From contig CP126194.1 in the NCBI GenBank assembly GCA_030272155.1, positions 1,116,001-1,180,000 of the forward strand: a DNA stretch of 64,000 bases, given 5' to 3'. The notes under the pieces are model-generated. The model was not told where the DNA came from, did not search any database, and saw only the letters and a list, made by a program, of their open reading frames with translations. The stretch comes from Tetradesmus obliquus. Lineage: Eukaryota > Chlorophyta > Chlorophyceae > Sphaeropleales > Scenedesmaceae. Below, in pieces: positions 1-64,000 of this stretch. The position numbers were made by a program, and so were the translations under genes. Each line of letters begins with the position of its first letter. The stretch's first letter is position 1.

Positions 1-69
1 AGGCTGGCACGGGAGCAGACTGACCTGCTGGAGGAGATGGGGCTCGCCACGCCCGAGGACACACTGCAG
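1..69 (+). repeat. First copy of the MCM4 ATPEDTLQ exon
   Basis: Encodes [27 protein letters not shown] sequence ending at a GT donor (70-71). An almost identical block recurs at 257-322 with Asn for Asp, and a shorter relic ([11 protein letters not shown]) lies at about 1462-1496 in a later intron. Only one copy can sit in the mature reading frame in front of the 490-611 exon. The second fits phase 0 with it. The first may be the same exon duplicated or a mutually exclusive exon. Confidence 0.7.
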
Positions 70-3000
70 GTGTGTTTGCGCGGTGTCCTGATGACAAAAT
101 TTACCTGGTTTGGCTCGTGTTTCGCGTGTGGCTTGATGCTTGTTGCTATGGTTGTGGGCGAGCGCCGGAGGACACGCTGCAGGTGTGACTTTGCTGTTGC
201 ATGCTGTGTGGCTGGGGTGTGGCCTGCTGCTGCTGTGGGATGAGGCCATCAACAGGCTGGCACGGGAGCAGACCAACCTGCTGGAGGAGATGGGGCTGGC
301 CACGCCCGAGGACACACTGCAGGTACGGCTGGGGTGCTGCTTGCTGCTGACATTTTTAGAAGTTTTGAGGTGGCTTGTGTTATGCGTGTGGCTTAGTGCA
401 TGTTCCTGGGTTTCGGGGAGCCATGTTCCCTTACTTGACTGCTGCTCAGCCTCCGTGTGTGCTTGCCTGCTGCGCCAACTGCACTGCAGACTCGCGTGTT
501 CAACCTGGACAACGTGCGGCCCATCAGGGACCTGGACCCCGTAGACATCGACAGCCTGGTGGCGGTGCGCGGCATGGTCACGCGCTCCGGCAACATCATC
601 CCAGACCTGCGGTGCGCGCGGCGCTCTATGTTGTGCCTAGCCGCTGCTTGAGGTTCCGGTCTCTGCCGCAATAATGATCGTTCCAGGCGTGCAAAGCGTG
701 CAGCGCTGCACGGCACTCCCAGCAGCTGCGCTGCTGATGCATATGTAGCTGTACCTACCAAGGTCGTCATGTCTGGCTACACCAGTCTCCGCTGCATGCA
801 TTGGCAGCCCAGGAGTATGGCTTCAAGTGGCACTTGTGCAGGCGATGCATGTGCAGGCGAATCGCCTGGTGATGCATGTGCAGGTGATGCATGTGCAGGT
901 GATGCATGTGCAGGTGATGCATGTGCAGGTGATGCATGTGCAGGTGATGCATGTGCAGGTGATGCATGTGCAGGTGATGCATGTGCAGGTGATGCATGCG
1001 CAGGCGATGCATGTGCAGGTGATGCATGTGCAGGCGATGCATGTGCAGGCGATGCATGTGCAGGCGAATCGCCAACTCGCCAAACCTGCCTACCTCACAC
1101 GCCCACTATTGCGGTCTGCCGTGTACACTGCCACACACACCTTGCTGCGCAGGCTGGCTGTGTTCCGCTGCGAGACGCCCGGCTGCCGTGCTCGGCAGTT
1201 TGGTTTGCAATCCTCTGCCAGCCTCTCAAGTGCTCACTCTGCACCGCACACTGTGTATTGCTGCGCAGGCTGGCTGTGTTCCGCTGCGAGACGCCCGGCT
1301 GCGGCGCCGAGGCGCACGACACGGTGGAGCGCGGGCTCATCGTGGTGCCCAACGCCTGCACCAAGTGCGGCAAGAAGGCCACGATGCGCATGATCCCCAA
1401 CCGCAGCGGCTTCTTGAACAGACAGGTGCGGCGGCGGGTTATTGCAGGCCCACAAACAGCAGATGGGCCTGGCCACGCCTGAGGACACACTGCAGGGACG
1501 CAGGCCCACAAACACGTGCGGCCCACAAAACACCCACACACATGCATGCTGCCTCATGTCTGTTGTCTCTTGCAGATTGTGAAGATGCAGGAGGACCCCA
1601 CGCACATCCCTGAGGGCGAGACCCCCCGCAGCCTGCTGAGCTACGCGTACGACACCAACGTGGACGCGGCCAAGCCGGGAGACAAGGTCACCATCACAGG
1701 TGAGGGGGAGCGCTGGGGTGCTGTTGCAAGGCTGCTGTTGCGTGGGCGGCGTCAGATGCAAGGCTGCAAACCTGCTGTTTTTGTGTGCTGCTGCATGGCG
1801 CAGCCAAGCTGGGTGACAAGGTCACCACCACAGGTGCTGCATAACGTGCATGATAGTTGGCAGGAGCAAGAGGCTCAGGGAGCTGCAACGCGTGTGCCGC
1901 TTGCCACTGCACAGCAGCAACCTTGGCGCTCACCGTGCTGCTGCGTGCCCTGCTCTGCTCACAAACCCTCGCAGGCATCTTCCGCGCGGCGCAGCTGCGC
2001 GTGAACCCGCGCCAGCGGGCCAGCCACGCGCTGTTCAAGACCTACCTGGACGTGCTGCATGTGGCCAAGGACGAGGCAGACAGGCTGTTCAGGCCGCGCG
2101 GCGCAGCAGGCACGCAGGTGCGTGATTATGTGCAGGCTTCAAGCAGTGGTGTAGGGCTGTAGCACTTAGCAGCAATGATTGCGGCGCTGCTTGACCAGCA
2201 GCTCTCCTAGTCCCACGCAAAGCCTTGTCATCAAGTGCTTGGTCTACTCGCTTGTTGATCTGCTGTGTACATGCTGCCGCTGATGCTGCTGCTGCTGCTG
2301 CTGCAGGGTGAGTCGCTGGAGGCCACGCAGACGCAGGGCGGGCCCGATTCCTTTGTGAGCGGCAACCTCAGCAGGCAGCAGCTGGCCGACAAGGAGGCCA
2401 AGTTCAGGGTGAGGCGGGCACCGAGAACTTCCGGGCTGTGGACCGTGAACTTTACGTAGCACGATTACTTCGCCGTGGAGCGGGAGCTGTGAACTCCAGC
2501 GGCTTCAGTGTGACCTACCTGCAGCGTGTGGAGTGTCCTAGCAGCAGGCACTACAACAGACATATCCACAAAACCACCACCAACTCACTAGCACACATCA
2601 TCTGTTTAACCAAGGAATTTTCCTCTTCGTATCAACTGACCCTTCTCACTCTCATTGCTTGCGTGTCTCACTTCTCTATTGACTGTTATACATTGATTAT
2701 TGTTATTGCATCGTGCCGCAGGCCATGGCCGCCGACCCGCAGCACTTCTCCAAGCTCATCGCCAGTGTGGCGCCGCGCGTGATCGACATGGACAACGTGA
2801 AGAAGGGGCTGCTGTGCCAGCTCTTTGGAGGCGTGGCCAAGTCCACCGCGTCAGCGCTGGGCGGCGACAGCTCCACCAGGTGCGTTGCTGGGCACGGCAG
2901 CCAGCGAACAACGAACACGAGCTGTATCACACGGCTCGTGTCGTTATTGTATTGTATGCTTGCATCGCCAACGCAGTAGCAAGGGCGGCACGGGCGACAT

Positions 3001-62600: not shown

Positions 62601-64000
62601 CTGCGTGAGGAGCAGTACGCTGCGCGGCGGGACAAGGACTGGGAGGAGACGCTCAGGCGGGAGGCGGAACTGCACAGGTGAACCGGTGCATCACAGCAGT
62701 TGGGGGTGGGCTGGGATCACATGTATTTGAGTTGGGATTCGGCAGCAGCAAGAGGCGCTGTGCATTGTGGGTTCGTTGTGCAGTTGGAGCAGCTGAGCAG
62801 GAGGGCAGAGTAAGAGGATATTACGCATGCCTTTGTTGATCCCACAACTTGTTTTGTAACGTGTCGCAGGTCAATGAAGGCGCAGTTTGAGTCATCAACA
62901 CAGCAGGAGCTGGCCACCTGGCATGAGCAGCAGCAGCAGCGCGCAGCCGCCAAGGCAGCCGCACACCACAAGTTTGGCGAGCATGTGGCATGGCAGGTTG
63001 TGCAGCTTGCAGAGCGTGTAGTTGAATACAGGGCTGCTACAGCCGGCCAGGCTGTCCCTCGCAGGGACTGGAGGGCTTGGGTCAACCTGTTCCTAGCAGG
63101 TTGGTGTACGCTGCAGCTGGGGCTGGATGCAAGCAACATGGCAGTGGTTGCAGCTTGCTGCAGAAAGTGCGGCACTGGTACCTGCAGTTTTATCTGGCAG
63201 TGTGCCACCTGTAGTCATGCAGTGTTTAGAGTTGCAATTGTTGTGGAAGTCCAGCAGTGCAGCCGCCGCATGTTCATCCAATGCACAATTGCATTGTTTT
63301 TCTGTCCCTGTGCTACAGATGATGCGTCACTTGGCAGTCCTGTAGTAGCAACAAGCCCAGAGGCAGCGGCAGAGACAGGCTCTGCACAGCAGGCGCTCAA
63401 CACAGCAGAGCTGCAGGAGTACCTTGCTGGGCAGGGCGAGTGGGTGCTGCCTGCAGAGGCAGTGGCCAGCAGCGCAACTGGGGCGACAGCAGCGGTACAA
63501 CAACATGCTGCCCTTGGGCGGGTTGTTGCTGAGCTTGCTGCGCTAGCTCAGAAGCTGGAGGGACGGCAGTTGCCGTTGCCTGCTGCTGGTGGCAGTGCAG
63601 ATGGTGTGGATGCAGTGCTGACTGCAGCAGACGCAGCAGCAGAGCAATGGCCTGAAAAGGCGGAAACAAGCACAATCAAGGCGATGCCTCTTAAGCTTGC
63701 AGTGGTGAGCCTAGGATGTGATGCGCATAGCATGGGATGCTCTGCCAGGTGGTGCTTGGTATGCAAGCTGAGCTGCCTCACCATTGTTGCACCAGAAGAT
63801 TACCACAACTGGACCACGTTAGCTCTTGCAGCATGTACTACAGGGTGAACAGCTTCTTGCGCGCATGATTGCACGCATCATTGCGATTGCTGAACATGGT
63901 GTCCTTGATCTTTGTGCGTCCTGCAGGCTGGCGGTCCCTTTGCCGGCAAGACAACTGTGGCCCGCGCCACTGCACAGCTGTATGGCTTGAAGCTGCTGAC
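59685..64000 (+). CDS. CPC1: Central-pair protein CPC1 / SPEF2 (3' truncated by window edge)
   Basis: Component of the central-pair apparatus of motile cilia. Exons 59685-59747, 59904-60026, 60199-60333, 60563-60684, 60902-61163, 61488-61665, 61841-61998, 62210-62362, 62577-62677, 62870-63099, 63319-63704 and 63927-64000 agree in phase for 661 residues. The N-terminus is a CH-like domain (EVLQAWLTDAGVE, FASGWLFGKLLAAFNLQPDH, YLANYTRLQPVLAKLGVQLD). A long charged coiled coil follows (RRRLLVEQQAARATSESR, RRDKDWEETLRREAELHR), then the block EYLAGQGEWVLPAEAV. Finally a P-loop (GGPFAGKTT) opens an adenylate-kinase-like domain at the window end. Order and motifs match SPEF2/KPL2. Confidence 0.87.
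60323..60412 (+). repeat. Tandem duplication at a CPC1 donor
   Basis: The exon end KDMQ with its donor (gacatgcaggtgcgctgaca...gtacaatgtttt) is repeated directly behind itself as gacatgcaggtgtgctgaca...gtagaatgttt, a unit of about 40 bp with a few changes. Confidence 0.88.

Follow-up and report, generated by a model that had tools for sequence, protein, structure and literature searches.

What produces the truncated copies of coding sequence that lie beside the exons of several genes in one stretch of a green algal genome? The stretch is a 64,000-nucleotide (nt) window of Tetradesmus obliquus (family Scenedesmaceae; contig C4, positions 1116001 to 1180000), for which a preliminary description reported exon ends copied, together with their splice sites, into the adjacent introns. 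We analyzed this window with 100 kb on each side (264 kb in total), together with 50 kb from contigs C1, C7, and C11 and six further MCM loci (19.3 kb), which amounts to ∼0.33 Mb of an assembly of 104.66 Mb in 17 contigs. Exon-end duplication is pervasive in the DNA examined, and it enlarges introns instead of creating them. The copies are unusual in scale and probably reflect a variation on a mutational process already known; the account that we consider likely is repeated tandem duplication spanning splice junctions, which would be tolerated since splicing continues at the original site. Positions below are counted from the first nucleotide of the window.

Local repeats and splice junctions

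Genes were predicted with a hidden Markov gene finder that started from an MCM4 model made by hand and was then self-trained, giving 56 genes, 306 introns, and 612 predicted junctions in the 264 kb. The hand-made model has a stop-free translation, and its alignment runs through to yeast MCM4. Internal stops are absent from the predicted proteins of the window (three copy exons were removed by hand). A family scan of seven predicted proteins placed four above the cutoff (proteasome, SelR, Tim17, and ISN1) and the expansin just below it against DPBB_1; the other two had no match.

A self-comparison of the window by BLAST (E value up to 1e-3, low complexity masked) returned 40 local direct pairs of at least 30 nt, some of them minisatellite or microsatellite pairs, along with 2 local inverted pairs and no far pairs (at least 40 nt long and at least 3 kb apart). 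Over the 264 kb, with short periodicities removed, 197 direct and 6 inverted pairs were found against 1 in an order-3 Markov control (a single run); at 45 bits or more, the respective counts were 140, 0, and 0. These pairs group into 97 clusters, 67 of which have an offset of 70 to 165 base pairs (bp) and comprise 53 exon-noncoding, 9 intron, 4 intergenic, and 1 exon-exon clusters. Predicted splice sites are reached by 48 of the 53 exon-bearing clusters, 2 others reach only a predicted gene end, and 3 reach neither. Among the best pairs with offsets up to 260 bp, 59 of 67 extend to a predicted splice site, with donor copies placed downstream and acceptor copies upstream, and a copy lies within 260 nt at 50 of the 612 predicted junctions. 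The exon-edge copy pattern is real and far above chance.

The pattern also occurs outside the 264 kb. The sequences from C1, C7, and C11 (57 predicted introns) hold 8 exon-bearing and 2 intron clusters. At the further MCM loci (40 predicted introns), all 15 clusters are exon bearing; they are distributed over four of the six loci, and the remaining two have no clusters. Exon-edge copies are present on five contigs in all (C4, C1, C7, C9, and C11). An assembly artifact is an extremely improbable source of a pattern that recurs on five contigs, is almost solely direct in orientation, and includes arrays whose copies, up to five in number, show a gradation of divergence.

Annotated proteins of the same species bear on how the copies are spliced. 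The T. obliquus MCM4 record (P0001) covers the entire 681-amino-acid query and contains no copy; it also omits an upstream copy that the gene finder had called an exon. A single residue difference was seen in the exon at 3642 to 3820 (L here versus M in P0001, within NELVLESG). All 419 residues of the annotated expansin (P0121) agree with the gene model, and none of its eight copies is included. The copies sit inside existing introns, and the annotated MCM4 and expansin and our exon models join the same exon ends. According to the annotation, the copies in both genes would thus be spliced out. With the original splice site still used, such duplications would be tolerated.

The duplicated unit and its divergence

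The unit was measured at 36 junctions with a single-unit copy (offset of 70 to 165 bp, homology up to the splice site), a set from which 12 predicted exons were excluded because the model was wrong or the exon was itself a copy. The offset has a median of 118 bp (mean, 120.7; standard deviation, SD, 18.1; range, 81 to 161), close to the recurrent periods of ∼115 to 133 bp noted earlier. The exonic piece measures 23 to 69 nt (mean, 43.3), in agreement with the earlier figure of 10 to 25 codons; it is 23 to 59 nt long at the 22 donor junctions (SD, 8.4) and 23 to 69 nt long at the 14 acceptor junctions. Homology extends into the intron part of the unit, with a mean z of 2.9 over 35 events (z > 2 in 20 and z < 1 in 9), which supports the tandem duplication of slippage type suggested in the preliminary description. 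In the four youngest exon-bearing clusters, the intron part is repeated at 92 to 100% identity, and several high-identity arrays still display the unit (e.g., 3759 to 4087, period 131; 15901 to 16319, period 115). Since the intron segment before the copy is usually homologous to the segment behind it, the unit at birth would mostly have been an exon end plus an intron start. An insertion that generates a long target-site duplication around unrelated filler was rejected, since the supposed filler usually shows homology to the intron.

We propose that a short tandem duplication with a unit of ∼118 bp would straddle a splice junction and leave a second exon end and splice site inside the intron. 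Splicing would stay at the exon-proximal site (the first donor or the last acceptor), with the protein unchanged, and duplications within exons would be lost by selection. Free of coding constraint, the copies would then decay, and a junction already copied may undergo further duplication, such repeated births giving arrays of different ages. The apparent anchoring and truncation of the copies are a matter of geometry: whenever a tandem duplication crosses a junction, its copy begins with exon sequence and finishes within the intron. The source may be replication slippage or the faulty processing of replication flaps. Short tandem duplications of up to ∼100 bp arise in rad27 (flap-endonuclease) mutant yeast, and those described here are alike in being short and tandem.

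The differences between exons and copies by codon position (first/second/third) total 50/38/124 in 42 pairs. Within arrays, changes that separate the exon from every one of its copies number 4/1/15 and changes in a single copy alone number 32/26/38; the third-position share of the latter does not depart significantly from one-third (p = 0.2), and the two distributions differ (Fisher p = 0.006). Changes common to some but not all copies (2/0/11) are as expected of an exon that drifts at synonymous sites and gives rise to its copies at different times. An in-frame stop is present in the copy of 5 of 59 pairs, and gaps in the exonic part occur in 13 of 59. The exon undergoes silent drift, and the copies change free of coding constraint, although their overall divergence is slower than that expected of a neutral copy.

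Unequal exchange with a diverged allele or haplotype, by which the exon parts of the copies would differ mostly at silent sites and the intron parts would already be diverged at birth, is an improbable alternative. It would accommodate the third-position excess, the slow first and second positions, and the frequent end of homology at the splice site, and a related Scenedesmus assembly contains scaffolds predicted to represent a secondary haplotype (PMC7955037). However, sequential births account for the changes shared by some copies as well as for the codon-free copy changes, MCM4 differs from the other T. obliquus record by one residue over the part compared, and the alternative needs ∼11% intron divergence between haplotypes.

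The preliminary description had further suggested a positive use of the copies as decoy splice sites. Their retention as decoy or backup sites under nucleotide-level selection would fit the slow divergence of the exon-derived copy sequence and the intact splice dinucleotides in 31 of 38 donor copies (29 of 32 in a cleaned set) and 19 of 21 acceptor copies, some of the losses being sites of a wrong gene model; it would also fit the concentration of donor differences at the degenerate positions +4 and +6 (21 of 31). Yet the donor core of the copies (+1, +2, +3, and +5) has 0.078 changes per site, not below the 0.055 found in these 32 pairs at first and second codon positions of the copied exon, and a copy exists at only the 50 predicted junctions given above. 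The second splice site at the inner end of the copies is not enriched: an acceptor of >5 bits lies near the donor-copy start in 22% of 32 cases versus 24% in the background, and a donor lies near the acceptor-copy end in 6% of 18 versus 11%. Given the codon-free copy changes, the lack of complementary-site enrichment, and a donor core that changes no less than the copied exon, the decoy proposal is not supported, and we consider such retention highly improbable. Cassette exons were rejected on the same lack of complementary-site enrichment. Visual inspection of MCM4 had suggested an AG motif where the copies begin, but it was not above background. As for the splice signals of this genome region, the acceptor matrix trained on the 264 kb has G at position −4 with a frequency of 0.91 (GCAG), and the trained donors have GTG at 0.88 versus GTA at 0.10.

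The excess of copies at junctions

The preliminary description had reasoned that a random process would duplicate exon and intron interiors equally. This null is too simple, because exon-internal duplicates are lost by selection and because of geometry. Even so, simulated random duplication with selection and decay gives far fewer exon-edge cases than were observed. In the simulation, 3,000 random tandem duplications were placed, only protein-preserving ones were kept, and these were aged neutrally and passed through the same detection.

Several results weigh against tolerated tandem duplication as a full account. The simulated detections were distributed over junctions, introns, and intergenic sequence as 724:547:850, versus 53:9:4 observed. 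Homology ended at the splice site in 51% of 35 observed cases and 11% of simulated ones; other settings gave 8 to 14% (three with neutral copies) and 21 to 41% (slowly evolving copies). The third-position share of differences was 0.59, versus 0.42 to 0.46 in the neutral simulation. At 20 junctions with alignable intron, the differences per site were 0.051 at first and second positions, 0.185 at third positions, and 0.187 in the intron; the first- and second-position divergence is thus 0.27 of the intron rate (bootstrap, 0.18 to 0.38), where ∼0.54 is expected for a neutral copy. The gene models, moreover, are predictions made without RNA reads, and 5 of the 53 exon-bearing clusters stop short of the predicted splice site. 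The simple decay of a random duplicate was rejected, as it underpredicts the junction share, the splice-site stops, and the third-position share. The slow copy divergence could result if the exon partly converted its copies, if the donor allele was diverged, or if selection acted weakly on the copies; gene conversion as its sole cause was dropped by argument.

A mechanism that is physically coupled to the splice junction, for example through positioned nucleosomes, transcription-replication conflict, or spliceosome-held RNA, could repeatedly stamp a unit of exon (∼45 nt) plus intron (∼75 nt) sequence into the intron. In its favor, the exon-bearing share of the 67 clusters exceeds the ∼34% of simulated detections, the exonic piece is narrow on both the donor and the acceptor side, and no piece at the 36 junctions is longer than 70 nt, against 32% expected under random placement (p = 1.8e-6). 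The age distribution of the clusters points the other way. Exon-bearing versus other clusters number 1 versus 2 at a noncoding identity of at least 0.95, 4 versus 3 at 0.90, 9 versus 7 at 0.85, 15 versus 8 at 0.80, and 27 versus 8 at 0.70, so that the exon-bearing share grows with age (1/3, 4/7, 9/16, 15/23, and 27/35). The youngest clusters (at least 0.90) have no significant excess (p = 0.2 against placement) and are compatible with random duplication. The rise of the junction share with age points at least in part to persistence or detection; we think that the junction excess builds up with age partly because the exon copy stays recognizable. Pieces shorter than 18 nt, furthermore, are not significantly scarce (∼2 of 38, p = 0.16).

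Longer exonic pieces also occur outside the 36-junction set. Three of the excluded exons have exonic matches above 70 nt (15349 to 15473, 122 nt, 70%; 160864 to 160956, 88 nt, 67%; 141255 to 141346, 83 nt, 83%); counting them as real gives 3 of ∼40 pieces above 70 nt, below the 32% expected. The excluded mis-modeled exon at 3642 to 3843 has an 85-nt match, of which the true exon part is ∼61 to 67 nt (the exon ends at 3820). Four pairs at offsets of 214 to 358 bp carry 96 to 118 exonic nt (exons at −35939, −696, −128, and 113022), the expansin acceptor copies carry 71, and two clusters on C11 carry 82 and 88 to 120. The ceiling of ∼70 nt is a tendency of single-unit copies, no rule, and the scarcity of long pieces may reflect selection against copies long enough for exon recognition. 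These longer pieces lower our confidence in junction-tied duplication, which we regard as unlikely. That splice junctions are hotspots of a dedicated duplication, with introns that grow as replicas of their own exon ends accumulate, is likewise doubtful.

Recurrent tandem duplication across junctions has known relatives. The copying of splice signals by tandem duplication is a recognized route of intron gain, and the cases of ATP2A1 and potato RdRp are likewise intragenic with copied splice signals, the potato duplicate spanning an intron-exon structure (PMC4974935, PMC3443670). Unlike intron gain of the AGGT type, the duplications described here lengthen an existing intron without forming a new one and, in both genes that were checked, leave the protein as it was; the unit crosses the junction instead of carrying an AGGT within the exon, and copies occur at 50 of 612 predicted junctions. 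Introner elements likewise give many introns of one genome a common feature, but here each copy derives from its own neighboring exon and no dispersed family was found within the window. Whole-exon duplication and mutually exclusive exons also repeat a coding segment beside its source, whereas the copies described here usually derive from one exon end only, with no enrichment of the opposite splice site. No description of the exon-end copy pattern was found in the titles and abstract openings returned by searches of an open-access collection, which leaves out most subscription papers. If general, the process would be a mode of intron growth with a dated record, each copy sampling the exon at the time of duplication, and it would provide natural tests of the choice of the spliceosome between near-identical sites ∼118 nt apart. 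It is also an annotation hazard, since the ab initio gene finder called several copies as exons (e.g., 245 to 322 and 3894 to 3974).

Distribution among the genes of the window

The copies and their source exons are listed in Table 1. The names 8-Cys, RAP, MYND, HP30, and CPC1 are labels from the preliminary description; HP30 matches Tim17.

Table 1. Exon-end copies and source exons in the window (window positions)
Feature	Positions	Strand	Remarks
MCM4 exon end	1..69	+	exon starts 128 bases before window; donor at 70; source of copies ~160-182, 225-322, 1458-1496
Donor-side copy of MCM4 exon ending at 69	225..322	+	offset 253 (~two units); 96% over 98 exonic nt
Acceptor-side copy of MCM4 exon 1269-1425	1142..1186	+	offset 116; 45 nt, 100% identity
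Donor-side copy of MCM4 exon 1576-1699	1799..1836	+	offset 134; 38 nt, 89%
Two acceptor-side copies of MCM4 exon 3219-3334	2948-3004, 3090-3142	+	
MCM4 exon, source of three donor-side copies	3642..3820	+	hand model; aligned through to yeast MCM4
Three donor-side copies of MCM4 exon 3642-3820	3890-3956, 4021-4087, 4145-4211	+	period 131 then 124
Donor-side copy of MCM4 exon 4748-4840	4904..4980	+	offset 97
Two donor-side copies of MCM4 exon 6494-6668	6735..6947	+	offsets 122, 274
Four donor-side copies of expansin exon 16272-16487	15714..16235	-	period ~115
Expansin exon with copy arrays on both sides	16272..16487	-	
Four acceptor-side copies of expansin exon 16272-16487	16530..17001	-	
Donor-side copy of predicted exon 21579-21781 (8-Cys-labeled gene)	21452..21494	-	donor lost in copy
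Donor-side copy of predicted exon 33953-34108 (RAP-labeled gene)	33700-33735	-	offset 250; related intronic repeats 33534..33735
Donor-side copy of MsrB exon 35658-35794	35876..35946	+	offset 124; donor lost; SelR domain
Acceptor-side copy of predicted exon 44854-44961 (MYND-labeled gene)	44660..44774	+	offset 119
Acceptor-side copy of predicted exon 47901-48040 (47-50 kb gene)	48135..48195	-	offset 117
Donor-side copy of predicted exon 48638-48744 (47-50 kb gene)	48431..48486	-	offset 202
Three acceptor-side copies of predicted exon 48638-48744 (47-50 kb gene)	48810..49121	-	period 109/128

Nine genes had been listed as carrying copies, and seven of them do: MCM4, expansin, the 8-Cys, RAP, and MYND genes, MsrB, and the 47-50 kb gene. 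HP30 has no exon-end copy, only one 23-nt noncoding match. CPC1 (61000 to 70500) gave 7 weak matches versus 0 to 4 in 10 shuffles, none of them near 118 bp; five are exon-exon and two are exon-noncoding, at offsets of 374 and 423 and 65 to 66% identity. The statement that most genes are affected compares with 19 of 36 predicted genes with at least four exons and 19 of 56 predicted genes overall. In MCM4, where at least six exons had been reported to have copies, we found them at seven exons reaching into the window and at two upstream. The earlier view that the copies cannot act as full exons fits most of them, with an exception on other contigs, where arrays at L031:4779-5240 and L033:7516-8190 repeat short exons in full, acceptor and donor included, in contrast to the truncated copies.

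The MCM4 copy at 1458 to 1496 lies 1.4 kb downstream of its source, the exon end at 69, in a different intron and with its donor lost, so that copies are not always adjacent to their source. An MCM4 intron holds, at 835 to 1064, a tandem array of a 15-bp unit in 15.5 copies, and a long G run (6815 to 6840) separates two MCM4 exon-end copies. An expansin intron holds, at 15488 to 15611, 41 uninterrupted CAG/CTG triplets. Minisatellites in the window have a 36-bp unit at 27863 to 28038 and a 22-bp unit at 49333 to 49493. A satellite-like array with a 68/137-bp period and 17 self-matches lies between predicted genes at L025:8430-9710 (C4:1054430-1055710).

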